Source: Tannerellaceae bacterium | GTDB lineage: Bacteria > Bacteroidota > Bacteroidia > Bacteroidales > Tannerellaceae | NCBI GenBank assembly: GCA_021203545.1 | Contig: JAJQAZ010000111.1 | Span: 62,001 to 126,000 of the forward strand | DNA: 64,000 bases | Direction: 5' to 3' | Shown here: positions 3,951-25,050 of the stretch, one piece after another | Layout: each line of letters opens with the position of its first letter | How positions within the stretch are numbered: position 1 is the stretch's first letter | The notes under the pieces: generated by a model | What the model was told of the DNA's origin: nothing | What the model saw: the letters and a program-made list of their open reading frames with translations, nothing else | Database searches by the model: none | Position numbers and translations under genes: made by a program

Positions 3951-4055
3951 CTCTTTAGATGGGGATTTATAATCCTCTGACTCCAAACTTAAATCTAAAC
4001 TTATAATTGTCAATTGGGTATGATCAATTGTCAGTTAGTTTAACCTTTAACTTTT

Positions 4056-11399: not shown

Positions 11400-11953
11400 A
11401 TGAGCAATTTTATAGTTGATCAGTATACGTTTGTACAATTTATCATACTATTTGTTACTGCTTTATTAATCGGAATGTCTAAAACCGGTATACAGGGAAT
11501 CACGTTGTTTATGATCCCTTTAATGGCTTTTAGCTTTGGAGCCAAAGCCTCTACCGGTGTTATTCTTCCTATGTTGTGCTTTGCCGATCTGTCTCCTCTT
11601 CCTGGTGGTATGCACCGTTTTTCGGGCTATTAGGAGGTTTTACAACCATGATCGGTAATGCCGCCGGCCCTGTTATGGCTGTCTATCTTCTTTCCATGCG
11701 TTTACCTAAATATAGTTTTGTAGGAACAAGCGCATGGTTCTTTCTGGTTGTCAACTATCTGAAACTCCCTTTACAAGTATTCGTCTGGGAAAATATAACC
11801 TTGCAAACCCTAATACTTAATTTATTTACTATTCCCATTATCATAATAGGTGCTGTTATCGGTATCTGGTTTGTAAAAAAAGTACCTCAGGAAACCTATA
11901 CCAGGTTCATTATTATAATTACTATACTCTCCACATTGATGCTGTTCTTTTAA
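11400..11953 (+). pseudogene. TauE/SafE family permease, internally deleted and frameshifted
   Basis: The first frame (11400-11633) encodes an N-terminal TauE/SafE half with LIGMSKTGIQG, then diverges after LPMLCFADL. The second frame resumes with FFGLLGGFTTMIGNAAGP and runs through the C-terminal helices to 11953. Together they would give about 185 residues against roughly 250 for the family, so the middle membrane segments are lost and the reading frame is broken. Intact members export sulfite or organosulfonates. The gene is almost certainly inactive. Confidence 0.85.
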
Positions 11954-12020
11954 TATTCCGGCGTACGACTTTTTCCAAAGTTACTATGTTCATTTTTTCG
12001 TTTTATAGATATAACTTAAT

Positions 12021-12115
12021 CGTTTATCAATTGTCAAACGAATAAGTAACAATTGTCAAACGAATAGTCCATAACTGTCAAACGAATAAGTAACAATTGA
12101 TAAACGGAAAAGTAT
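12021..12115. repeat. 22-bp tandem repeat, four copies, with an inverted half-unit
   Basis: Units begin at 12028, 12050, 12072 and 12094, exactly 22 bases apart. The core is CAATTGTCAAACG; the third copy begins TAACTG and the fourth has CAATTGATAAACG. An inverted half-unit CGTTTATCAATTG (12021-12033) is an exact reverse complement of the fourth core. The array lies 70-160 bases upstream of the ECF sigma gene. A 22-base period is two helical turns. Confidence 0.85.
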
Positions 12116-12171: not shown

Positions 12172-12179
12172 TATATTTG
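12172..12179 (+). promoter_or_regulatory. Possible -7 box just before the ECF sigma gene
   Basis: TATATTTG matches TAnnTTTG but ends only 5 bases before the ATG at 12184. The transcript would be nearly leaderless, or translation begins at the second ATG (12190). Confidence 0.4.
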
Positions 12180-12183
12180 TTTA

Positions 12184-12729
12184 ATGGATATGGATTCTGA
12201 TTCAACTGATCTTTATCGCAAAGTGTATCTTGAATATGCGCCCATGTTATTACGTTTTGCGGAGAAGTTTGTCTCTCCCTTTTATGCAGAAGACATCGTA
12301 CACGATGTTTTTCTGAAGCTTTGGGACAGGCAGGTATTCCTTTTGCCGGAAAATGAGTTGAAGCGGGTTCTCTTTGTAGCAGTTAGAAATGCCTGTTTTG
12401 ACCAATTACGTAAATTCAACCTGGAGCAGGAATATCTGGATAAAAGTATTATTCAGTTAAAATTAGATGAACTGGAATTTTACGAAAATGCAGAACAACA
12501 GTTTATGCAAAAGGAGTTACTGGCATTGTTGCTCCAAAAAGTAGAGGAACTTCCGGAAAGAAGCCGTGAGATTTTCAAACTATCTTATCTTGAAGGTTTA
12601 AAAGCGGCTGAAATAGCAGACCGTTTGGATCTATCCGTTCGTACCGTAGAAAACCAACTTTACCGTGCTTTACTTCATTTACGGAAATCCGGCTCCCGTA
12701 TTTTTCTTTATTTGTTTACTTTTCTCTGA
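12184..12729 (+). CDS. ECF RNA polymerase sigma factor (SusCD-associated)
   Basis: This 181-residue protein has the sigma-70 region 2 sequence YAEDIVHDVFLKLWDR (about residues 36-51) and a region 4 helix-turn-helix LEGLKAAEIADRLDLSVRTVENQLYR near the C-terminus. It belongs to the Bacteroidetes ECF group that works with FecR-type anti-sigma factors and TonB-linked receptors. By analogy it activates the downstream SusC/SusD operon when substrate binding signals through the receptor's N-terminal STN domain. Confidence 0.93.
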   Translation: MDMDSDSTDLYRKVYLEYAPMLLRFAEKFVSPFYAEDIVHDVFLKLWDRQVFLLPENELKRVLFVAVRNACFDQLRKFNLEQEYLDKSIIQLKLDELEFYENAEQQFMQKELLALLLQKVEELPERSREIFKLSYLEGLKAAEIADRLDLSVRTVENQLYRALLHLRKSGSRIFLYLFTFL

Positions 12730-12818
12730 TTTTTTCAAAAAGTTTATTTGTGTGTGAGTACTTTTCTTTTCCTGTTCGTTGTAGAAGAAAGGATACATAA
12801 CTAATCCAGCGGTTTACC

Positions 12819-13793
12819 ATGAACAATGACTACTCACATCTCATCATAGGATACCTGCAGGGCACATTATCAACAGAAGAAATGGTGGCTTTCCGGACAT
12901 GGGTAAATGCCGGTCCGGACCATAAAAAGTTATTCTTTGAGGTAAAAGCGGTTTATGATGCCTGCTTAAGTGAAAACCGGGCCATCGATATAAACGGGAG
13001 TTGGCTACGCCTTTTAAAGAAAAAACAACAATCAAAGAGATATTTTACCCTATTGAAACGGGCCGGGTCGTATGCTGCCACTATTTTGTTAGCTATTGGT
13101 ATTACTTCTTTACTTTTTATATGGATTCCGGATAGAACAGAGACAATCGCTTCCCGCTATATCGGAGGAGACGGTTTAGAAGCGGATGTGGTTATTTTAC
13201 CGGATGGTACACAGGTAAGCCTCGGGTCAAAAACGACCTTTTATTATGAGTCCGGTTACGGTAAATCCCAACGAAAAGTATTTTTGGAGGGCGAAGCCTA
13301 CTTCGAAGTAGCTGCCAATAAAAAGAAACCTTTCATCGTACAGTTAAACGGACAGGCAATAGAAGTTTTAGGCACTAAGTTTAATGTAATGGCTTATCCC
13401 ACTGATTCTCTCTTCACTACAACCTTGCTGGAAGGATCCATCCGGATATCAGGTGATAACTTATCCCGGAGTGTCGTACTTAAACCCAATCAGCAATTTA
13501 TATTAAACCGCAACAACCTGGCCGCTAAGGTACATCAGGTAGATGTCAGCCAGTTTATTTCCTGGACATCCGGTTATTATTATTTTCCGGAACAACGTCT
13601 GGAATCTATTCTGCACCGTTTAAGCCATGTATATGGAGTAACATTTGCCGTCCATTCCGAAAAATTGAATAATACAGTCTTTACCGGAACATTCTATCGT
13701 GGGCAAAGCATCAAAGACATCATGGAAATCATCCATTTGTCGGTACCTATTAAATACATCATCGATGAGCAACATGTAAGCATATATGACTAA
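12819..13793 (+). CDS. FecR family anti-sigma factor
   Basis: The 324-residue protein has a cytoplasmic N-terminal segment, one membrane helix near residues 85-105, a periplasmic FecR domain (about 115-215, with VILPDGTQVSLGSKT and FLEGEAYFEVA) and a C-terminal DUF4974 domain (about 250-320). It should hold the upstream ECF sigma at the inner membrane and release it on a signal from the SusC-like receptor that follows. Confidence 0.93.
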   Translation: MNNDYSHLIIGYLQGTLSTEEMVAFRTWVNAGPDHKKLFFEVKAVYDACLSENRAIDINGSWLRLLKKKQQSKRYFTLLKRAGSYAATILLAIGITSLLFIWIPDRTETIASRYIGGDGLEADVVILPDGTQVSLGSKTTFYYESGYGKSQRKVFLEGEAYFEVAANKKKPFIVQLNGQAIEVLGTKFNVMAYPTDSLFTTTLLEGSIRISGDNLSRSVVLKPNQQFILNRNNLAAKVHQVDVSQFISWTSGYYYFPEQRLESILHRLSHVYGVTFAVHSEKLNNTVFTGTFYRGQSIKDIMEIIHLSVPIKYIIDEQHVSIYD

Positions 13794-13949
13794 TAAATTG
13801 TCTAACCCTAAAGAAAAGTACCATGAATAGCAGCTAATCAACAAAAAGAAAGAAGAGAAAATCTTGCAGGATCCTCTCTTCTTATAATCGTTCCTAATTA
13901 AATTCCCATTGCAGTGGGATCAGTATTTAATTCTTAAACATACAAATAT

Positions 13950-16900
13950 ATGAATAACCAGCATATAGTTACTTTTAATTACCCAAAAAGAGCTATAAAT
14001 ATTATGAAAATAATACTAATTATGATGGTTGCCGGCTTAACACAAGCAGTCGCTGTCACGTACGCACAGACAACAATACTCAGTGTTCAAGTGAAAAATG
14101 AAACATTGGAAAGTGTATTCAAGAGGATCGAGAAAGAGAGCGAATTTCTGTTTTTCTATAACGTGGACGAGATAGATAAAAATGAAAAAATATCGCTGGA
14201 TAAAAAGAATAGTCCCATTGATGAGATATTACAGGAAATATTTGAAAAAACAGGAATAACCTATTCAATCAAAGACCGTCATATTGTATTGACTTCTTCT
14301 CCCGGAACCAAAGTACAGGATACTCCCCAAACAAATAAAACCATTTCCGGTATAATCCGCGATGACAGGGGAGAGACAATTATCGGAGCCAATGTTGTGG
14401 AAAAAGGAACCACCAACGGAGTTATTACCGATATGGATGGACATTTCACACTGTCTGTTTCTGAAAACTCAACTCTTCAGATATCTTATATCGGCTATCT
14501 GATGCAGGAAGTGCCTGTACGCAACCAAACAAATTTTCAAATAACCTTACGGGAAGATATACAAAGCTTAGATGAAGTTGTGGTAATCGGGTACGGTACA
14601 GTGAAAAAGAAAGATGTTACGGGAGCGGTATCGCAGGTCCGTTCGGAAGAGATCCTGAAAACAAACAGTCCCACACTGGCTACCGCTTTACAGGGACAAA
14701 TACCTGTAGATGTGGGCGGTGTCTGGAAACCGGGATCTAACCCTTCGATCGAAATAAGGGGAGTCAGTTCTATTACCGGCTCTAACGATCCTTTGTGGGT
14801 GGTGGATGGAATACCGATGCAAAGTTCAAGTGTCAGCCTGAATCCCAATGATGTGGAATCTATTGACATCCTCAAAGATGCTTCCGCTTCGGCTATATAC
14901 GGGGCACGGGGTTCCAATGGAGTAATTATCGTAACAACCAAACGGGCTGTAGCTGGCCAAAACAGTATAAAAGCCAGCTATAGTGGTTGGGTAGGATTCG
15001 AGCAACTAAGCAGAAGGCCGGATCTGATGAATGGAGACGAACATGTGGCTTACAGGCGCCTGGCAGTACAAAATGCCGGAAGAGATACTTCGGATGAAGC
15101 CATGTTCGATGCGGTGGAACTTGCCACGCTGCAAAGTAGAAATTATACCGATTGGTTTGACCTGGTATGGGGCGGAACCGCTTTTTCTACCAATCATAAT
15201 TTTACTCTCAACGCTTCCAGCCAGAAAACAGCCACTATGCTTTCTTTATCTTATCTCGATCAGGGTTCCTTAATTGAAACCGCCGGATATAAACGGTTCA
15301 ATGTAAATTTCAATAACACATTTGAGTTTTCCGAACGGTTGAAATTTACAACAGCAATTTTAGGTTCTTATTCAAAAACCGAAAATTTTCATGCCTATGT
15401 GCGGCATGCTTATTATCTGTCGCCCCTGGTTACTCCATACGATGAAGAAGGAAATGTGAAATTATATTCGAATCCCAATGAAAACCTGATCACTAACCCG
15501 TTGGCAGAAATAGAAAATAACCGCAACTCCACCACATTGTATGGCTTTATCGGTTCCCTTTCCATGGACTGGCGGATCTGGGACGAATTAAGGTATAAAT
15601 TTTCTGCCGGTATCGATTTCTCAACAGACGATAACGGAAAGTATGAAGGGAGCGAAACCCGTGAAAGAAGCGAAGGCCCCCATGCGGCAAGCTACGAAAG
15701 CAGGAAACGTCTCTCTTCAATTGTAGATAATGTCTTATCCTACAATAAGGTTGTTAATAATCACCGGATAGGCGTTATGGCAGCTTATAATATAGAAACG
15801 TATCAATCAAAATCAGTTTACCTGAAGGGCACTGATATGTTTTTTGATGGTTTGTTTTATAATCTGGAATCTGCCGCCACTGTATTAGGGAAAAATACCA
15901 AACTATCCGAATGGGGCATCATGTCTTATATGGGGCGTATTAACTATAGTTTTTTGGAGCGCTATCTGTTAACCCTTACCTATCGCCGGGATGGCTCCTC
16001 CCGCTTGTCGGATAAAAATAAGTGGGCCGGATTCCCCTCTGTCTCTGTAGCATGGAGACTATCCGAAGAACCGTTCATGCTCTCTTTCAATCAAAAATTC
16101 CTGGATAATCTGAAATTGCGCCTCTCCTGGGGAAATACGGGAAATACAAATGCAGATCCTTACGGAACATTGGGGAAACTCTCCACTACCTATTATTCAT
16201 GGGATGAAACTCCGGCAATGGGTATTATTCCAACCGGTATTCCTAATCCGGATCTAAAATGGGAGAAAACGGAAGAATATAATATCGGACTGGATTTCGG
16301 ATTATTCCATTCCCGCCTCAATGGTGCGGTCGACTGGTATAGGCGTACAACAAAAGATTTAATCCTATCCCGTAATCTTCCTGCTACATCCGGTTACACA
16401 TCTATTACACAAAATATAGGTAGTACACGGAACCAGGGTATTGAAATCAGCCTGAATGGAGATTTAATACGAAAAAAAGATTTACGATGGAATATGGGTA
16501 TTACTTTCTTTAAAAATAAAAACCAAATACTGGATCTGTTCGGAGATAAGAAAGATGATGTAGGGTCAAAACACTTTATCGGATATCCCATACGGGTTCA
16601 ATATTTACTGGATTTCATCGGCGTGTGGCAGGAAAATGAAGCCGAACAGGCCGCTGTGTGTAACGCGGAACCGGGATACCCTAAATACTGGGATATATAT
16701 AACAAAGAGGGGGAAGCCCCCGGTATTAATTTGAATGACGACCGGTACATCATCAACACAGATCCTTCCTGGATCGGAGGATTAAATACAACGGTAGTCT
16801 ACAAAGATTTTGATTTGTATATAAGCATGAATACCCGTCAGGGAGAAAAACAATGGTCGGATGTACATGCCATTGATAATATCGAAAGGTATATCAGTTT

Positions 16901-17219
16901 CAGGCAAAATTACTGGACTCCTGAAAACAAATCCAACACCGATCCGGCTCCTGCTGTAGCAAATACCTATACCGATTTTACTAACAGCGATTATTATATT
17001 CATGATGTCTCTTTTGTCCGTTTATCCAATATCTCCCTGGGATACACTTTACCGTCGAACGTGGCTAAAAAGTTTGGAATGGAAAGGGCAAAAGTATATG
17101 TAAATATCAGCAATCCATGTGTCTGGAGCAGTTACAAAGGACAGGATCCGCAGGTAACGCACCGGGAATCATATCCTGCTGTAACCTCTTATCAATTTGG
17201 TATAAATCTGAATTTCTAA
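13950..17219 (+). CDS. SusC/RagA TonB-linked outer-membrane receptor with STN domain
   Basis: The 1089-residue protein has a signal peptide ending near TYAQ (about residue 40), a signalling STN domain (about 46-110), a carboxypeptidase-D-like regulatory domain (about 127-205), a plug domain starting at EVVVIGYGTVKKKDVTGAV, and a beta-barrel to the C-terminal aromatic residue. The STN domain marks it as a transducing receptor for the FecR/ECF pair just upstream. It imports a ligand captured by the SusD-like partner. The ligand cannot be read from sequence. Confidence 0.95.
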   Translation: MNNQHIVTFNYPKRAINIMKIILIMMVAGLTQAVAVTYAQTTILSVQVKNETLESVFKRIEKESEFLFFYNVDEIDKNEKISLDKKNSPIDEILQEIFEKTGITYSIKDRHIVLTSSPGTKVQDTPQTNKTISGIIRDDRGETIIGANVVEKGTTNGVITDMDGHFTLSVSENSTLQISYIGYLMQEVPVRNQTNFQITLREDIQSLDEVVVIGYGTVKKKDVTGAVSQVRSEEILKTNSPTLATALQGQIPVDVGGVWKPGSNPSIEIRGVSSITGSNDPLWVVDGIPMQSSSVSLNPNDVESIDILKDASASAIYGARGSNGVIIVTTKRAVAGQNSIKASYSGWVGFEQLSRRPDLMNGDEHVAYRRLAVQNAGRDTSDEAMFDAVELATLQSRNYTDWFDLVWGGTAFSTNHNFTLNASSQKTATMLSLSYLDQGSLIETAGYKRFNVNFNNTFEFSERLKFTTAILGSYSKTENFHAYVRHAYYLSPLVTPYDEEGNVKLYSNPNENLITNPLAEIENNRNSTTLYGFIGSLSMDWRIWDELRYKFSAGIDFSTDDNGKYEGSETRERSEGPHAASYESRKRLSSIVDNVLSYNKVVNNHRIGVMAAYNIETYQSKSVYLKGTDMFFDGLFYNLESAATVLGKNTKLSEWGIMSYMGRINYSFLERYLLTLTYRRDGSSRLSDKNKWAGFPSVSVAWRLSEEPFMLSFNQKFLDNLKLRLSWGNTGNTNADPYGTLGKLSTTYYSWDETPAMGIIPTGIPNPDLKWEKTEEYNIGLDFGLFHSRLNGAVDWYRRTTKDLILSRNLPATSGYTSITQNIGSTRNQGIEISLNGDLIRKKDLRWNMGITFFKNKNQILDLFGDKKDDVGSKHFIGYPIRVQYLLDFIGVWQENEAEQAAVCNAEPGYPKYWDIYNKEGEAPGINLNDDRYIINTDPSWIGGLNTTVVYKDFDLYISMNTRQGEKQWSDVHAIDNIERYISFRQNYWTPENKSNTDPAPAVANTYTDFTNSDYYIHDVSFVRLSNISLGYTLPSNVAKKFGMERAKVYVNISNPCVWSSYKGQDPQVTHRESYPAVTSYQFGINLNF

Positions 17220-17238
17220 CCCTAAAAATTCAACTACA

Positions 17239-18843
17239 ATGAAGAAACTGTTTATGATATATATGGCTGTTTGCATCTGTTTTTCCGGTTGTGATATCCT
17301 GGATGAAGATCCGCAAACCCAATTAACACCCAAGGGATATTATGATACCAAAGAAGGGATCGAAACATTAGTAAATGCCTGTTATTCCAGATTACGTTAC
17401 GTTACGGCTTCCGATGTGTATCTGTTACGCCTCACCGAGCAGGGCACAGATATCTTTGAATCAGGTCTTGATGGGTCTATCAATTTTGATAGCTACAGAA
17501 TCTCGCTTACAGCCGGCGAAATTACCAGGCTATGGGAAGATTGTTATATTGGTATCAATGGCTGCAACACACTAACCGCTTATCTGCCTGCTGTAGCGGA
17601 TATGACCGGTCCGGAGAAAATTATCCGGGAAGCTGAAGTCCGTTTTCTCCGGGCCTATATGTATTATCACCTGATTATGCAATTTGGAGATGTACACCTC
17701 ACGCTTGAACCGACTGAAGGAGTAGAAACAGAAGCCAACCGTACATCGGTGGCGCAGATACTGGACGAAGCCATTTATCCGGACTTACGGTATGCTGTTG
17801 CGAATCTGCCGCTATTGCAATCTGATTATGGCCGCGTTGATGTGCATGGTGCCCGGTTCTTTCTGTCGTATGTACTCCTGTCCGATAGCCGGAGCGGTAA
17901 AGCCCAATTTGACGAAGCTGCCGGGTTAGCGGTAAATGTAATTGAAAATTCGCCCTATGCGTTACAGGAAAACCGTTTCCTGGTGTACGACCAGGACAAT
18001 GATATGAACAACGAAATCATCTGGAGTTTTCAGTTCTCGCAGGATGAATCTCTCCGGGAGAATGGCAATAAAACCCATTTGTATTTTGTACCCCAATACC
18101 AAAATTCACCGGGTATGACACGTGTTATAGAGTACGGACGCTCTTTTACCCGGTTTAAACCTACACAATTTATGTGCGATCTGTATGATCCGGACATAGA
18201 TGCCCGTTATCAGGCCTATTGGCGCGATACCTGGTATACCGTGGTTGAAACCGAAAATCTGTCTCTGGGAGACACCGCAATATATATGCCTCAGAAAGCA
18301 TGGACCAAAGAACAGATAGATGCCCAAAAGTACAGAGTATATAATCCGGAATTCAGCGAAAATTATGGTGATGGTTATTTCCGTACAAATAACCAGGTAT
18401 TCTGGCAGCTGAGAAAATTCGATGATGTTAAGCGGCCCACTATGAACGAAGAAAAAGGAACCCGTGATTGGGTCTGCTTCCGCGTGGCCGAAGCCTATTT
18501 GCTGGCCGGAGAAGCCTATTACCGTAGTGGCGACAATGGCAATGCCGTAAAATATATCAATATTCTGCGTCGCAACGCAGCCGTACCGGGCAAAGAAAGT
18601 GACATGGAGATCACCGCAGCCGATCTCTCTATTGATTTTATACTGGATGAACGGGCACGTGAACTTTGTGGAGAAGGTAAACGCTGGTACGACCTGAAAC
18701 GTTTGGATAAACTACTGGAAAGGGCCATGAAACATAACCCGCTGGCTTCTGTGAATATGAAACCATACCATGTGCTCCGTCCCATACCACAAAGTCAGAT
18801 CGACAGATGTTCCAATCTATATCCTCAAAACGAAGGATGGTAA
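17239..18843 (+). CDS. RagB/SusD family lipoprotein
   Basis: The 534-residue protein starts with a lipoprotein signal (FSGCDILDEDP; lipidated Cys near residue 18) and has the N-terminal SusD-like TPR region and the C-terminal RagB/SusD domain, including FRVAEAYLLAGEAYYRSG and LDERARELCGEGKRWYDLKR. It is the surface substrate-binding lid of the SusC receptor encoded 19 bases upstream. No glycoside hydrolase is adjacent. Confidence 0.95.
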   Translation: MKKLFMIYMAVCICFSGCDILDEDPQTQLTPKGYYDTKEGIETLVNACYSRLRYVTASDVYLLRLTEQGTDIFESGLDGSINFDSYRISLTAGEITRLWEDCYIGINGCNTLTAYLPAVADMTGPEKIIREAEVRFLRAYMYYHLIMQFGDVHLTLEPTEGVETEANRTSVAQILDEAIYPDLRYAVANLPLLQSDYGRVDVHGARFFLSYVLLSDSRSGKAQFDEAAGLAVNVIENSPYALQENRFLVYDQDNDMNNEIIWSFQFSQDESLRENGNKTHLYFVPQYQNSPGMTRVIEYGRSFTRFKPTQFMCDLYDPDIDARYQAYWRDTWYTVVETENLSLGDTAIYMPQKAWTKEQIDAQKYRVYNPEFSENYGDGYFRTNNQVFWQLRKFDDVKRPTMNEEKGTRDWVCFRVAEAYLLAGEAYYRSGDNGNAVKYINILRRNAAVPGKESDMEITAADLSIDFILDERARELCGEGKRWYDLKRLDKLLERAMKHNPLASVNMKPYHVLRPIPQSQIDRCSNLYPQNEGW

Positions 18844-18876
18844 AAATACCTGTATAACTTAATTAAATAACACAGT

Positions 18877-20214
18877 ATGCAAAAATCAAGAAGAACATTT
18901 ATAAAGACAGCAGCGACAGGGGTAGTAGCCTCTGTTGTTGCCCCTGCAGCATTAGGAAATACCCATTCCGGCAACATAACTCACCCCACCATAATCCCTC
19001 AAAAAGTGTTTGGTGCCAACGATCGTATACAGGTGGCCGTATTGGGAGTAAACGGCCGGGGGCAAAATCATATTTCGGAAATTATGCAACAACCCAACGT
19101 ACAAATAGTCGCCTTGTGCGACCCGGATAAAAATATATTGCATGAAAGAGCAAAATCCTTTGAAGAAACCTATAAACAGAAAGTCCGTATTGAACAGGAT
19201 TTCCGTACCATATATGAAGCAAAAGACATTGATGCCGTTACATTAGCCACTCCGAACCATTGGCATGCCCTGCAAACTATCTGGGCTTGCCAGGCCGGAA
19301 AAGATGTATATGTCGAGAAACCTGCTACCCATAACATCTATGAAGGCAGGAAAATGATCGAAGCCGCCTATAAATACAACCGGATTGTGCAACATGGTGT
19401 ACAACTGCGTAGTTCCGTGGCTATCCGGGAAGCAATCCAACATCTGCGGGAGGGTCTGATCGGCAAAGTATATATGGCACGCGGACTTGTTTACCGTTGG
19501 CGGCCGGATATAGGTAATCAGGGCATATCCAATGTGCCGGAAGGGTTAGACTACGATTTGTGGTGTGGGCCCGCTCCAATGGCCCCGTTTACCCGTAATC
19601 TGGTACATTATAACTGGCATTGGCACTGGAACTACGGCAACGGGGATGTTGGCAATCAGGAAATACATGAAACAGACCTCTGTATGTGGGGACTTGATGT
19701 GGGACTGCCCGAACGCATCACCTCTATGGGCGGTAAATTTCTCTGGGACGACTGTAAAGAAGTACCAGAGATACAAACCTCCATTTATCATTATCCCAAA
19801 CAGAAAAAAATCATACAGTTTGAGGTAAGGAACTGGTGTACAAACCTGGAAGACGGTGCCGGAGTCGGTAATATCTTTTATGGCGACAAAGGTTATATCG
19901 TAATCAATGGATACGACACCTATCAAACCTACCTGGGAGAAAAACGGGAAAAAGGGCCGGGCCGCAAAGCATCAGGCAACCATTTTGGAAACTGGTTCGA
20001 TGCGATTCGTGCCCGTGATATGAGCCTGCGAAACGCTCCGGTAGAAACCGGGCATTTATCTTCCGCACTGGCCCATTTAGGAAATATATCCTATCGCTTA
20101 GGCAGACAATTGGAATTTGATCCCGTATCTGAATGTTTCATCGGAGATGAGGATGCAAATAATATGTTATCGCGCGAATATAGGGCACCCTATATATTGC
20201 CGTCTCAGGTATAA
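18877..20214 (+). CDS. Gfo/Idh/MocA family oxidoreductase with Tat signal
   Basis: The 445-residue protein begins with a twin-arginine-type signal (SRRTFIKTAATGV) and contains the NAD(P)-binding Rossmann motif VLGVNGRGQNH and the EKPATHN segment of the family. Such exported oxidoreductases in Bacteroidetes act on sugars or sugar derivatives using a bound cofactor. It follows susD by 33 bases and belongs to the same operon. The substrate is unknown. Confidence 0.88.
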   Translation: MQKSRRTFIKTAATGVVASVVAPAALGNTHSGNITHPTIIPQKVFGANDRIQVAVLGVNGRGQNHISEIMQQPNVQIVALCDPDKNILHERAKSFEETYKQKVRIEQDFRTIYEAKDIDAVTLATPNHWHALQTIWACQAGKDVYVEKPATHNIYEGRKMIEAAYKYNRIVQHGVQLRSSVAIREAIQHLREGLIGKVYMARGLVYRWRPDIGNQGISNVPEGLDYDLWCGPAPMAPFTRNLVHYNWHWHWNYGNGDVGNQEIHETDLCMWGLDVGLPERITSMGGKFLWDDCKEVPEIQTSIYHYPKQKKIIQFEVRNWCTNLEDGAGVGNIFYGDKGYIVINGYDTYQTYLGEKREKGPGRKASGNHFGNWFDAIRARDMSLRNAPVETGHLSSALAHLGNISYRLGRQLEFDPVSECFIGDEDANNMLSREYRAPYILPSQV

Positions 20215-20287
20215 CCAATAAATTCAGATTCAACATGAAATGAGGCACTGCTGAATTCCATACCTACCATTAAAATAAATTTATCGT

Positions 20288-21328
20288 ATGAAATATTTAC
20301 TGAAACTACTTTTAGTTGTTTTTATAACAAATACCCTGGCATGTGCAAACTCTCCAAAGGGTATCCAAATTATTCCGGATGAAGCACAGCAGAAAATAGA
20401 TATTCTATATGATGGGAAACTATTCACATCCTATCTCTATGCATCTGATATCGAAAAACCTGTATTATATCCAATCTATACGGCAAACGGAACAGTAATC
20501 ACGCGGGGCTTTCCCCGTGAACCCCGCCCGCATGAACGGATAGACCATCCCCACCATATAGGTTTGTGGTTTAATTTTGGAGATGTCAACGGTCTTGACT
20601 TCTGGAATAACTCCTATATAGTACCACCGGAAAGGAAGCCACGATATGGCTCTATCCGGCACCGTAAAATTGTCGATATATCAGAGGGTACATTGACCGT
20701 AGCAGCCGACTGGATTAATCATACAGGAAAAGCTTTACTAACAGAGGAAATCCATTTTATTTTCAGTGGCGAAGGTGATTGGCGTATAATTGAGCGGCGA
20801 ACCAAACTCTCCGCCCTGCAGGATACAGTAACCTTTACAGACAATAAAGAAGGCCTGATCGCAATCCGTATGGACCGGGCCTTTGAAGAACCCACAGATA
20901 AACCGGAGATATTCCTCGATAGCGATGGTAATCCCACAGAAGTAAAGTCGATGAACAAGGAAGGAATAAACGGAGTATACCGCAACAGTAACGGATTAGA
21001 GAAAGGCGATGTCTGGGGAAAACTGGCAAACTGGGTCAGCCTGTCTGCCGAAAAAGAGGGAGAAAAAATAACAGTAGCAATCCTTGATCACAGCGAAAAT
21101 CCAGGCTACCCCGCTCATTCCCATGACAGAGGATATGGACTATTCGCAACCAACAATATGGGAAGCCAGGCCTTCAATAAAGAAGCTCCATTATTCACCC
21201 TCAAATTAAATCCGGGAGAATCAGTCACCTTCAAACACCTGATCATTATAAAAACAGGCGGTTTCACCACAGATGAAGAACTGAACCGGAAGTTTTCTGA
21301 ATTCAATCAGGATAATGCATCCCTGTAA
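20288..21328 (+). CDS. DUF6807 (PmoA-like) family exported protein
   Basis: The 346-residue protein has an N-terminal signal with a possible lipobox (LACANS). It contains the features of the DUF6807 family, often annotated as methane oxygenase PmoA: RIDHPHHIGLWFNFGDVNG and a C-terminal YPAHSHDRGYGLFATNN. The histidines suggest metal or sugar binding. Members commonly sit beside Gfo/Idh/MocA oxidoreductases, as here, which supports a shared sugar-derivative pathway. The biochemical role is not established. Confidence 0.75.
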   Translation: MKYLLKLLLVVFITNTLACANSPKGIQIIPDEAQQKIDILYDGKLFTSYLYASDIEKPVLYPIYTANGTVITRGFPREPRPHERIDHPHHIGLWFNFGDVNGLDFWNNSYIVPPERKPRYGSIRHRKIVDISEGTLTVAADWINHTGKALLTEEIHFIFSGEGDWRIIERRTKLSALQDTVTFTDNKEGLIAIRMDRAFEEPTDKPEIFLDSDGNPTEVKSMNKEGINGVYRNSNGLEKGDVWGKLANWVSLSAEKEGEKITVAILDHSENPGYPAHSHDRGYGLFATNNMGSQAFNKEAPLFTLKLNPGESVTFKHLIIIKTGGFTTDEELNRKFSEFNQDNASL

Positions 21329-21355
21329 ATAGTATGTATTTTTCGCCCTTGAAAA

Positions 21356-21424
21356 GGGCAGTTTAGTTCAGCCCATGGCAGAATAAGCGTAGCGAATAGT
21401 ACCGTGGGTTGGACTAAACTGCCC
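21356..21424. repeat. Large hairpin with 23-pair stem
   Basis: Arms 21356-21378 and 21402-21424 pair over 23 positions; the three non-identical positions are all G-U in RNA. The outer flanks TATTTTTC and GAAAAATA also pair. It marks the right border of the SusCD locus and could terminate it, though it lacks a T-run directly after the stem. Confidence 0.75.
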
Positions 21425-21488
21425 CTTAGCAGGAGAAAAATAACACCAGTCGCCCGAACAATTCACTGGGAATATTGACATTCAATCA

Positions 21489-21827
21489 TTATTCTTCCAG
21501 TTTTTTTAGGGAATCCAGAAGTCTATTTTGTACTTCTTCGTTAAAAAGAGCCAGATCTTCCTTATCCAAAACTTTGTCATAAAAAAGCCCTAACAATGTT
21601 ATAAAATATCTGGAACCTGTCATTGCATCGTATCTCCTGGCAACATGTTTATCAAATGTAACGACCTTTTTATATAGCTTTAAATACGATTCATGCGAAT
21701 CTGTGTTTTTGATATCAGGATGGTTTATAAACTTCTCCATATCTTCAAGAAATAGAGAGCATTCTTTATGAAGCCCTTTATTAATAAGTTCTCTTGCTAT
21801 TTTCTTTTGGCTTTTAGAAAATTCCAT
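21489..21827 (-). CDS. Uncharacterised small helical protein
   Basis: I do not recognise this family. From the ATG at 21827 it has 112 residues, beginning MEFSKSQKKIARELINKG, and is charged and helical with no signal peptide or membrane segment. An in-frame start at 21917 adds 30 hydrophobic residues but overlaps the remnant at 21896-22068, so the shorter form is preferred. It lies in an AT-rich accessory segment next to a nucleotidyltransferase-HEPN protein; a functional link is unproven. Confidence 0.6.
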   Translation of the reverse strand: MEFSKSQKKIARELINKGLHKECSLFLEDMEKFINHPDIKNTDSHESYLKLYKKVVTFDKHVARRYDAMTGSRYFITLLGLFYDKVLDKEDLALFNEEVQNRLLDSLKKLEE

Positions 21828-21895
21828 ATCTACGTCTATATTAAGCAAATTAATAAAAGCAAAGATATGAAATATCTTTTTTGATACGCTTCCGC

Positions 21896-22068
21896 TTACT
21901 TTTCGCTTATTTTCCAATAACCTGTTTTGTCGCTACCTATGCGTTCAATTATTTTCTGCTCTTTGAGTTCTTTTATTCTTGCCTGGCAGTACTTAAACTG
22001 AATACAGTGTCATTTACAGTGTCATTTGTTGTGTCAATGAACTGAAAGTTATAAGCTACTCTACTCAT
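21896..22068 (-). pseudogene. Winged-helix fragment of an AlbA_2/Fic-type ATP-binding regulator
   Basis: From ATG at 22068 the frame reads MSRVAYNFQFIDTTNDTVND and stops at 21973. In another frame the sequence continues RIKELKEQKIIERIGSDKTG and YWKI to 21896. That second part matches the C-terminal winged helix seen in Bacteroides AlbA_2-domain or Fic proteins, where NDTxNDT linkers are common. Only the C-terminal tail of a larger gene remains, and it is frameshifted. It starts one base after the stop of the 22069-22953 gene. Confidence 0.6.
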
Positions 22069-22953
22069 TTAATTTGTACTATAATTCTTAATTCTCTCCT
22101 CACAAATCCTCTCTGCTATCTCTCTGAGCAATTCCACTTTGGGAACCAGTTGATCAATATCCTCCTTCGTTACCACAAAATACGGATTATATCTTGCATC
22201 CACATAAGCCGCTTTTATAAGAGAAAACAACCGTTTCTCTTCCGGAGTATCCTGTGGAAACACTTTTCTCAAATCTTCCGAATACTTCTTTACAGAAGCA
22301 GATAGCTTGGAAAGATTATGTTGTTTGTTATTCCGTAGAGTAAAAGTTAATCGAATGGCATAATAATAGTTTTCACAGGCTTGATGTAAATCAAATGAAG
22401 CTATTGGGTAATCTTTGTCATCATACGCATGTTTTGCTTGTCTCAAAAAGCCATTTGCTTTCTGAAACTTCTCATCAAAATATTCCTGTGCTTGTTCTTT
22501 AATCTCCTCAAAGTTTAACTTTCTTCTCCGGGCTAATTTATATTTCCCGTTATTAAATAAAATAACCCCTTCCCCTTTGATTTGAGTGTAGAAATATCTG
22601 CCCTGTTCAATAAACTTATTAAAGTTTTTGACATCATCGTTAATAAATTGTACAGGAGTATCGCGGTCGAAATCCTTACCGGCAAAAAAGAGATCTTCTA
22701 CATTATCCAGCATAGTTTCTACTTTTTTACTGTTGATACCGCTGGTTAATACCAGTATATCATAATCGGATATTTTCACGGTGGGAACCCCGTCTTTCTC
22801 TACTCTGATACCGCGACGTACATAATGATCCCGTACATAGCTACCATACAGAATAATATATTCTGTATGAGATAATCGCTTTAACACCTGGTTAACGAGG
22901 AAGTTTAACTCCTCCTGTTTGTCTTTCGGCAGATAGGCTATCGAATTTTTCAT
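22069..22953 (-). CDS. Minimal nucleotidyltransferase-HEPN fusion protein
   Basis: The 294-residue protein combines two halves usually found as separate MNT antitoxin and HEPN toxin proteins. The N-terminal half has the nucleotidyltransferase motif LYGSYVRD (about residues 38-45) and SDYDILVL (about 68-75), separated by a small insertion. The C-terminal half is a helical HEPN domain with an RNNKQH (Rx4H) motif typical of HEPN ribonucleases. It could be a one-polypeptide toxin-antitoxin or RNA-modifying enzyme. It has its own -7 box at 22983-22990. Confidence 0.8.
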   Translation of the reverse strand: MKNSIAYLPKDKQEELNFLVNQVLKRLSHTEYIILYGSYVRDHYVRRGIRVEKDGVPTVKISDYDILVLTSGINSKKVETMLDNVEDLFFAGKDFDRDTPVQFINDDVKNFNKFIEQGRYFYTQIKGEGVILFNNGKYKLARRRKLNFEEIKEQAQEYFDEKFQKANGFLRQAKHAYDDKDYPIASFDLHQACENYYYAIRLTFTLRNNKQHNLSKLSASVKKYSEDLRKVFPQDTPEEKRLFSLIKAAYVDARYNPYFVVTKEDIDQLVPKVELLREIAERICEERIKNYSTN

Positions 22954-22982
22954 TGTGATGATTATGTAGAAACCAGAAAATA

Positions 22983-22990
22983 CAAAACTA
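22983..22990 (-). promoter_or_regulatory. Bacteroidetes -7 box for the MNT-HEPN gene
   Basis: The minus strand reads TAGTTTTG, 30 bases before the ATG at 22953. Confidence 0.55.
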
Positions 22991-23032
22991 CGAAAAAAGC
23001 GGGATTTGTTTTACCCTTTTTACGCGAAGTTA

Positions 23033-23040
23033 TATATTTG
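23033..23040 (+). promoter_or_regulatory. Bacteroidetes -7 box, rightward
   Basis: TATATTTG matches TAnnTTTG and would drive the gene at 23175 with a leader of about 130 bases. Confidence 0.5.
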
Positions 23041-23174
23041 TGCAGCGTTCCTGTTTTTATTTGTTTTGTGCCTGTCCATACAAAATAAATAAGCCTATAT
23101 ACACAGGTAGTTACTTTATTATTTGATTATTTATCTGACCCTGATATGCAGTCAGGAGCAAAAGGAACGTATCT

Positions 23175-23567
23175 ATGAACAACAATAAAACTACCGGTAT
23201 AGAACATTATACAGGCCTATTTCAGCAAATCATCCATTTATTAGGCAAAACTCCTGAAGAAATAATAAACAGTTATCCGGATCATGAAATGAGTCTTTTG
23301 GAATGGCCCAAAAGTTATGGCATGAAAGAAAGACTTGAAATCCGTTTTCAAGAAGAACAGGCAACCCTTACCTGTGAATTTGATAAAAAAAGGAGATCCA
23401 GGGTTGTAAACATATTCACAGACATCAATCCAACGGCAGAAGAATGCATCCGTGTGTTTAATCAAAATTACCCGTACAATTGGTTTTTCAACAGATGGAA
23501 AATGGCTTCCTGCTATCTGTACTTAAAACAATTGGATGAAATAATTTATTTTAAATGTACTTTATGA
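23175..23567 (+). CDS. Uncharacterised 130-residue protein
   Basis: I do not recognise this family. The protein is soluble, with no signal peptide, and rich in aromatic residues (NQNYPYNWFFNRWKMASCYLY near residues 97-117). It precedes a truncated HlyD-type adaptor gene by about 90 bases, separated by a hairpin at 23590-23629. In Bacteroidetes small proteins of this kind are sometimes found near bacteriocin export genes, but that link is only a guess. Confidence 0.6.
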   Translation: MNNNKTTGIEHYTGLFQQIIHLLGKTPEEIINSYPDHEMSLLEWPKSYGMKERLEIRFQEEQATLTCEFDKKRRSRVVNIFTDINPTAEECIRVFNQNYPYNWFFNRWKMASCYLYLKQLDEIIYFKCTL

Positions 23568-23589
23568 TTTCCCCGTTAGGTAGCAGGTT

Positions 23590-23629
23590 TGTTTTGGGAT
23601 GTCCAACATATTTTAGGTGTCCCAAAACA
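23590..23629 (+). terminator. Hairpin after the 23175 gene
   Basis: TGTTTTGGGA (23590-23599) pairs perfectly with TCCCAAAACA (23620-23629). A third copy of TGTCCCAAAA lies at 23652-23661. There is no T-run, so the role may be regulatory instead. Confidence 0.5.
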
Positions 23630-23660
23630 TAATTTGCCATCATTACTCATATGTCCCAAA

Positions 23661-24215
23661 ATGGAACCAACTGAATCTTCTTTTTATTCCTCTCAACTTT
23701 TAACGATGATCCCGCTTTTATATCACCGGATATTGGATTGGGAAAAGAAGTATATCCTCAAATCTCCATCTGTAGGAAAAATTACTTTCTTAAACTTTTG
23801 GAGTAAAGATCAATATGTGAGTGCTGGAGAAAGAATCTTTTCTGTTATATCGGTTCATTCGGGTTCTATATTAGGCAGATGTTATCTTAATACATCCGGC
23901 TTGGGAAAAGTGAGAGAGGTACAATTAGTGATAATAAAGCTTAATGAATATACCTATATGGAGTTTGGTATGCTCAAAGGAGTAGTCTCAACTATCTTTT
24001 TGATAGGTATTGAAGATAATCGGCAGGAGGAACAAAATCGGTATGCTGTTGTTGAAATTGGTTTTGATACCGGAAATTTACAAAGTACCTATAGCAGAGT
24101 CCTTGAGTTCAGAGGAGAACTAACCGGTATTGCTGAAATTGCAACCAAAGAGATGTCCTTGCTCGAACATTTAATAAATCCGTTGAAATATTTATGGAGT
24201 ACTATTGAACACTAA
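23661..24215 (+). pseudogene. C-terminal fragment of an HlyD-family secretion adaptor
   Basis: From the first ATG (23661) 184 residues remain. They cover the end of the biotinyl-lipoyl-like domain (ILDWEKKYILKSPSVGKITF, SAGERIF) and the beta-barrel (YTYMEFGMLKGVVSTI) of a periplasmic adaptor such as those exporting bacteriocins with ABC transporters. The membrane anchor, coiled coil and first half of the lipoyl domain are missing, so the protein cannot bridge a pump. A TTG start at 23589 adds only unrelated residues. Treated as a truncated remnant. Confidence 0.7.
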
Positions 24216-24234
24216 ATATGATGTACGTTTCTCT

Positions 24235-24870
24235 TTAATAAGATTTCGTTAGTTTGAATTCGTAATATTCTGTCAGCCATGCGATGGTATCGGATGGGAA
24301 CGTCATATCCTGCAAAGAACGAAATTTGGAATTTTCATGAAAGAACTCTTCCTTCTTTGCTTTTTCATAATTCCGCCAGTAGCCGTAATGACCGACTTGA
24401 GAATAATCATTATAGTCGGTTTCTCTGCCATCGTAATGAATGAAATAATGAGCTCTGTTCATTATAAAAGTAGAGTCGTTTGAAAATACTCCCCAATATT
24501 CTCTGTTATTACTTTCATATTGTAGTGTGTCGTTTGATAACTGCAGCAGGAATTGATGATGTGAATAGATATCTTTGAGATAGATGCTGTCTTTACTTTT
24601 ATCAACAATCAATGTTGTATAATAAGGTTGTCCTAACAGTGACTGTTCACCCCAGAATTGATTTGCCAGTGCCGATTCAGACTCCAATTTATTCCCTTCA
24701 GGGCCTATAAATACATTGAAGTCTTTTATTTCATGCTCTCCTGTATAGGTGAATTCGAATACGGTAGAATCTTCTATTGTAATTTTAGGTTCTCCTGATT
24801 CTTTTTCGCAGGAAATAACCAACAAGAATAAAGCCATTAAAGGAAACAGGTAATTTTTCATTCTCTCCAT
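24235..24870 (-). CDS. Uncharacterised lipoprotein
   Basis: The 211-residue protein begins with a lipoprotein signal and lipobox LVISC (Cys near residue 21; a start three codons later at 24861 is equally good). The mature part is rich in Tyr, Asp and Ser, consistent with a surface beta-protein, but I recognise no family. It is transcribed from the -7 box at 24916-24923 and converges on the HlyD fragment. Confidence 0.75.
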   Translation of the reverse strand: MERMKNYLFPLMALFLLVISCEKESGEPKITIEDSTVFEFTYTGEHEIKDFNVFIGPEGNKLESESALANQFWGEQSLLGQPYYTTLIVDKSKDSIYLKDIYSHHQFLLQLSNDTLQYESNNREYWGVFSNDSTFIMNRAHYFIHYDGRETDYNDYSQVGHYGYWRNYEKAKKEEFFHENSKFRSLQDMTFPSDTIAWLTEYYEFKLTKSY

Positions 24871-24915
24871 TTTTTGTTATACACTCATTTGATATAGGCG
24901 AACTGTATCTACCAA

Positions 24916-24959: not shown

Positions 24960-24968
24960 TATTTGTTG

Positions 24969-25050
24969 TGCGGCTGAAGGGACTCGAACCCCCACGCCGT
25001 GAAGCACCAGATCCTAAGTCTGGCGTGGCTACCAATTACACCACAGCCGC
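24969..25050 (-). tRNA. tRNA-Leu (anticodon TAG)
   Basis: The minus strand folds into an 82-base tRNA. The acceptor stem is GCGGCTG/CAGCCGC with discriminator A. The anticodon stem CCAGA/TCTGG carries loop CTTAGGA, giving anticodon TAG. A long variable arm (class II) and the T arm GTTCGAGTC confirm leucine. The CCA end is not encoded. A -7 box TACCTTTG sits at 25066-25073. Confidence 0.95.

Follow-up and report, generated by a model that had tools for sequence, protein, structure and literature searches.

A row of four 22-bp tandem units with an inverted half-site lies upstream of an ECF sigma factor gene in a Tannerellaceae bacterium, and it raises the question of whether such units are the operator of one operon or members of a wider class of repeats. 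The window considered here is the whole 64,000-nt stretch C136:62001-126000 of the organism's own assembly (G000; 4.96 Mb, 187 contigs). The repeat itself is present as originally described, with exact copies of CAATTGTCAAACG at 12028 and 12050, copies with two mismatches at 12072 (TAACTGTCAAACG) and 12094 (CAATTGATAAACG), and an inverted copy on the minus strand at 12021-12033. Its regularity is far beyond chance. Tandem Repeats Finder gives it as the top row of the window (period 22, 4.0 copies, score 109), and its best 22-bp self-match over 66 bp scores 49, whereas the highest value among 200 windows resampled under a first-order Markov model is 39. Isolated 13-mers with up to three mismatches are not enriched over the whole window (24 found, 24.2 expected), so the signal is the phasing rather than the word.

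Direct repeats with an added half-site describe the window array less well than four palindromes whose outer arms are inverted. The dyad centres fall at about 12030, 12052, 12074 and 12096 on CAATTG-like hexamer cores, and the left and right outer arms mirror one another (Table 1).

Table 1. The array and its surroundings in window coordinates
Feature	Position	Strand	Remarks
TauE/SafE-family gene	11576-11953	+	In congener G001 likewise precedes an array, of another core
Stretch matching a second array of the same genome (C136:130531-130692) at 74%	11945-12106		Second array lies beside a putative KpsF-like gene (name from reading frame)
Array of four 22-bp dyad units, A-type, with TTGACAATTGTCAA-like core and inverted outer arms	12019-12108		Counterpart of the 90-bp element of Parabacteroides sp. 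PF5-9
Dyad unit 1 (TCGTTTATCAATTGTCAAACGA)	12020-12041		Register from family alignment
Dyad unit 2	12042-12063		
Dyad unit 3, core TAACTG	12064-12085		
Dyad unit 4 (CAATTGATAAACG)	12086-12107		Mirror of left arm
TATATTTG, element before sigma gene	12172-12179	+	Like element in two congeners without array
ECF sigma factor gene	12184-12729	+	Neighbour
FecR, SusC-like and SusD-like genes	12819-18843	+	Neighbours
tRNA-Leu	24968-25050	-	In G001 comes directly after TauE and array

The suggestion that the units belong to a dispersed family is strongly supported. A genome-wide search with a 16-base core places A-type arrays at four places in G000, the window copy being joined by three more at C6 (at a contig edge), C10:32303 and C136:130604. 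The window and C136:130604 copies have 162 bp in common at 74%, so their likeness includes the flank. An AT-rich variant, the B-type, has cores TATAATTATA and CGTTT arms and occurs at ten places, at two of which it is incomplete; in five copies the likeness extends over about 225 bp in the region of the array. Core-blind scanning also yields GGCACN4GTGCC and CAACN4GTTG (D-type) arrays, all in the 4 x 22 format, and two D-type copies have about 250 bp in common. These copies, L264 and L274 (C48 and C112), are also alike in a 61-bp inverted piece at 92%. Palindromic 22-bp repeats with A/T-tract flanks (AAAGCATGTACATGCTTT, CCCATGGG, AAAGCACCGGTGCTTT) at L294, L295, L296 and L269 may be another sub-class. 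One proposed member drops out: the words before radC (4004-4033), TAATTGTCAATTG and CAATTGTCAGTTAG, show no 22-bp phasing, and CAATTGTCAATTG-type words occur both there and, equally unphased, at several other places in the genome, so we rejected the radC words as look-alikes.

The constant feature of the class is its geometry, usually four palindromes with centres 22 bp apart, and the cores are interchangeable. A sequence-blind detector, designed with its thresholds after the arrays had already been seen, looks for sets of four dyads, each judged over eight half-positions, at a set spacing. It makes seven matches at spacing 22 (score at least 22) in 540 kb of G000 and seven in 400 kb of the single-contig genome G014, with 0-2 matches in the same stretches at each other spacing from 17 to 29. 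When the 92 arrays detected in this way are extended by a simple blind rule, 62 come out at exactly four units and the others at one to five; those of G019, scored differently, often have five or six. The same format recurs within the family with its own linkers and cores, such as TTTTGACAACTGTCAAAAG in G019, TTGATAATTATCAA in G025 and CANNTG centres in G014 and G023, and G027 holds two array families.

Among Bacteroidales, the model R1 matched 15 of 393 genomes at E 1e-4 or better, a count that concerns the A-type and is silent on other cores. The 15 include G000 and G025, which were already known. Ten R1 loci were viewed, from genomes other than G058, G228 and G332, which are also among the 15. 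Dyad arrays are present at L304 (G012, same family) and, in families other than Tannerellaceae, at L305 (G152) and L306 (G446); L307, L308, L311, L312 and L313 resemble plain tandem repeats, and at L309 and L310 the viewed stretch lies outside the match. A pattern search across genome contigs returned 14 stretches: three PF5-9 arrays, one element of another Parabacteroides MAG, and ten others (Listeria, Chitinophaga and others) that look like single palindromes and were set aside. An intergenic perfect palindrome, TTCATTTATCAATTGATAAATGAA, is common to three Listeria species, apparently at one locus (L134 1750, L139 905, L141 1392).

As a class, the arrays are dispersed, mostly fixed in geometry, interchangeable in core and subject to turnover between congeners. 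At the KpsF-like locus, the gap that bears the array in G000 is 300-362 bp long, and its counterparts in G001 and G004 measure 77 and 36 bp. For the C11 locus the figures are 286 bp in G000 and 81 bp in G001, and the gaps of G002 and G003 are each 225 bp shorter. These two G000 loci, 205-326 bp longer than in congeners, differ between relatives by presence and absence as MITEs do, which is an observation about other loci than the window copy. MITEs in general have terminal inverted repeats with target-site duplications; the arrays have inverted outer arms, and their exact edges could not be drawn. Because neither target-site duplications (in the flanks of G000 loci and in G016) nor a clean terminal repeat for the A-type element could be defined, mobility of the window copy is something that we infer.

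A relative identified as Parabacteroides sp. PF5-9, also of the Tannerellaceae (G016), carries the arrays at no fewer than 42 places (pattern and model searches; at least 88 model rows, both strands), and the search pattern makes 86 matches there compared with one for the reversed pattern. After exclusion of the incomplete place C6:1-82, and with L133 repeating L160, 41 distinct elements align gap-free over 90 columns; identity averages 80% in a set of 42 rows that contains one place twice. Among 32 loci with enough flank, again with one place entered twice, no array lies inside an ORF of more than 150 aa, and the surrounding genes are co-directional in 17 cases, divergent in nine and convergent in six. 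The array flanks are A-rich and T-rich. At L091 and L097, ends of the ACGTGAGTTCGATATAA kind lie near two arrays and resemble the terminal repeat of MITE700, an element listed for P. gingivalis (PMC4596501), and L097 contains two tandem 21-bp copies of TCCGTTTGATAATTGGCAACC at 1719-1760.

These elements also indicate what may be under selection within a unit. Half-site conservation in G016 is 2.0 bits at position 3 and 1.8-1.9 bits at positions 1, 6, 7 and 10, with lower values of 1.0-1.3 bits at 0, 2, 4, 5 and 8. Position 3 from the dyad centre is invariant and paired in 164 of 164 dyads. Covariation shows no Watson-Crick excess over all unit pairs (1103 observed, 1107.6 expected) or over the whole-array hairpin (1374 observed, 1386.8 expected); an exception is base-pair covariation at positions 0 and 2, counted from the centre of the dyad. 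Since conservation peaks at fixed half-site positions without overall hairpin covariation, we infer four protein dimers per array. A protein probably binds the arrays, and the conserved positions would be its contacts, with one dimer per dyad. An RNA hairpin as the main selected feature was rejected for want of covariation over all pairs, the covarying positions 0 and 2 notwithstanding.

The strongest lead is a transposon end found beside arrays, although not beside the window copy. In G016, a number of contigs are broken off beside an array at one sequence, ...GGATAAGTCA, and all nine G016 copies of the end word TGACTTATCC (up to two mismatches) adjoin an array. By BLAST with 95 bases, the end occurs in six of 123 family genomes, at 14 places besides those in G016. 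By blind scoring, 21 of the 23 places (9/9 in G016, 12/14 elsewhere) have an array of four dyads at spacing 22 no more than 150 bp beyond the end, as expected of a transposable element that inserts at repeats; other spacings at the same score give 0-2 of 23, and a random DNA control gives 13 of 5000. In 11 of the 23 cases, spread over G016, G027, G000 and G021 with differing cores, the distance from the end to the first dyad centre is +28 or +29 bp, and the remaining distances in the detector output run from 8 to 73 bp. At two G021 places the distance is 36, and the spacer starts with an extra TAAGTC-like copy of the end. L209 has the end without an array; L210 has GGCAC dyads by eye, with one 23-bp step and a score below threshold.

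No match to a transposase was made in G016 or G027 by a search with rve (PF00665), these assemblies perhaps being without the element interior. An IS21 pair of G032 that has a PF00665 match was rejected as the transposase on account of its different ends, and a plasmid search for the transposon end found nothing. At L164 (G016 C36, 1-140), a different terminal sequence, ...GTGGAAAAGTCA, in which ACAACTTGT recurs, also borders an array at a distance of 16 bp and is perhaps the other end of the same transposon.

On balance, we think that the array is probably one copy of a MITE-like, dispersed protein-binding element, of a class present in Tannerellaceae and in certain other Bacteroidales, and that transposons use it as a landing pad. 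The dispersed, intergenic, non-coding arrays, usually of four palindromes with centres 22 bp apart, would each hold four dimers of a DNA-binding protein on one DNA face, with one paralogue per core family. The elements may spread in the manner of MITEs, two families sitting inside larger repeated elements, and what a transposon recognises as its landing pad would be the array in its bound state and not the sequence, in parallel to the res-site hunters on resolvase-bound res sites. It is also possible, and we suggest it tentatively, that dimeric DNA-binding proteins of Bacteroidales have diversified with quartet cores of their own and that the transposon reads an occupied quartet regardless of sequence and inserts outside it at a preferred distance.

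The array could instead be the inner part of a larger MITE or transposon, arranged as end, spacer, array, spacer and mirrored end, with solo arrays as BrickBuilt-like remnants. The surroundings common to B-type (about 225 bp) and D-type (about 250 bp) arrays fit such a unit, and two G021 arrays have degenerate ends on both sides. In G021 the end, its 17-bp spacer and the array are alike in four copies, which favours end and array travelling together. However, the spacers of G016 differ, most of its arrays lack an end, and two insertions there cut the first arm of the array. At L207, moreover, what appears by eye to be a small element, about 125 bp long and bounded by inverted ends of its own, lies outside the array; this speaks for the array as the target. 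We consider the larger unit unlikely, but a serious contender.

It is distinctly improbable that the arrays are nucleoid-organising or segregation sites at which an architectural protein finds high-affinity nucleation points. Intergenic copies that number in the tens per genome and show no preferred orientation could serve in this way, and the strong half-site constraint would be expected, but copy number is very different between relatives and the core changes between species.

According to the original prediction, the four sites could be bound cooperatively by a regulator, which would thereby control the whole ECF sigma/FecR/SusCD operon. Its first half has merit, since the phasing does fit cooperative dimers, and the window array ends about 65 bp upstream of the promoter-like TATATTTG, which we take to be the Bacteroidota-type -7 element of the sigma gene. 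One G021 array also precedes a putative ECF sigma gene (L225, read from DNA). Control of the operon is another matter. The sigma homologues of congeners G004 and G001 have a TAnnTTTG promoter just 5' of the gene and no array upstream, so the conservation ahead of the regulated gene that marks a CRP/FNR operator is missing in both. In G001 the gene order is murF, TauE, an array with core TGTCACN4GTGACA, and tRNA-Leu, without the SusCD segment between array and tRNA, and in G000 the ECF/FecR/SusCD segment separates TauE from tRNA-Leu. With sigma homologues that lack the array and a TauE array that lacks SusCD, the array is not tied to the operon, and we rejected an operator specific to it. The array beside TauE in both G000 and G001 counts as one case of shared position; G002 and G003 have none after TauE, and about 107 kb of congener loci (overlapping loci counted twice) contain no further array. 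The block of about 12.8 kb at 12184-24900 (ECF sigma/FecR/SusCD/oxidoreductase/DUF6807) was either gained in G000 or lost in G001.

Elsewhere, too, arrays adjoin unrelated genes or sit in convergent gaps. Those of G016 occupy gaps of every gene orientation, and the 30 scanned among 39 listed neighbour proteins (DNA polymerase I, rubrerythrin, aldehyde dehydrogenase, EamA transporters and others) include no sigma factor, no common theme and no candidate array-binding protein. The A-type dyad TTGAY-N4-RTCAA presumably has the FNR half-site layout of CRP/FNR-type operators; the arrays differ from these in not being promoter-specific and in having other families with unrelated cores. We judge the ECF sigma gene to be an incidental neighbour, consider an operator role very unlikely, and suppose that any influence of the window array on the sigma operon would be incidental.

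Least credible of all are transcribed hairpins or terminators acting as RNA stem-loops, for although the units are palindromic, none of 200 shuffles folds as well as the window array on either strand (z -3.7 and -3.9), the G016 flanks would suit a terminator and the covarying positions 0 and 2 a hairpin or cruciform, nine of 32 G016 arrays lie between divergent genes, Watson-Crick pairs are not in excess over all unit or whole-array pairs, and eight array loci, the window copy not among them, gave no Rfam match.

The open-access literature on Bacteroidales MITEs and on 22-bp and Parabacteroides repeats yielded no description of such quartets. REP/BIME elements with RAYT are GTAG/CGTC-tagged hairpins served by a Y1 transposase, a res site consists of subsites bound by several resolvase dimers, and res-site hunters carry TniA/B/Q transposition genes. 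The nearest described element is BrickBuilt, a MITE of Porphyromonas gingivalis, which belongs to the order Bacteroidales. The accessible part of its account (PMC4596501) gives 19 dispersed, intergenic, non-coding copies of 1 to 22.8 tandem 23-nt units, capable of stem-loops and of promoter activity in both directions, with 12-bp GAGACCTTTGCA-like inverted ends on leader and tail, like ISPg1, and reports no BLASTn matches outside P. gingivalis. Ends of that kind were not noticed in the array flanks viewed. The arrays resemble BrickBuilt in being intergenic, dispersed, non-coding and built of tandem units almost equal to its own in length (23 nt versus 22 bp). They differ in that BrickBuilt has 23-nt units in widely varying number, whereas spacing 22 and usually four units are typical here, and interchangeable cores do not appear in that part of the BrickBuilt account.

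Two other systems are closer in how a target is chosen. IS elements use intergenic REP/BIME palindromes as preferred targets (PMC1525189, from the portion available), and the arrays are likewise intergenic palindromes preferred by a specific transposable element; each IS there is paired with its REP sequence, whereas here one end lies beside unrelated arrays, often 28-29 bp from the first dyad. The Tn5053/Tn402 res-site hunters use target-bound resolvase and insert in a preferred orientation (PMC7765201, in excerpt). By analogy, the target here would be the site of a dimeric protein, recognised via that protein and in a preferred orientation, with the difference that the arrays are dispersed in tens of copies and known from DNA alone. 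PINSR, a 188-bp, high-copy, intergenic, non-coding Prevotella repeat without obvious terminal repeats (PMC4755523, likewise in excerpt), is similar as an abundant repeat of a Bacteroidales lineage; in this comparison by description, phased palindromes are not part of what the excerpt says of PINSR.

Bacterial repeats are usually defined by sequence, and here the common feature is geometry while the sequence swaps between families and species. This combination suggests a protein family of changing specificity, and the array DNA offers a handle for finding that protein. It also carries a warning that such arrays should not be named operators of the nearest gene. If the landing-pad reading is true, these genomes would contain a sequence-independent, geometry-read landing pad with exchangeable protein specificity, and it would provide an example from nature in which a transposon recognises a nucleoprotein complex instead of a sequence.
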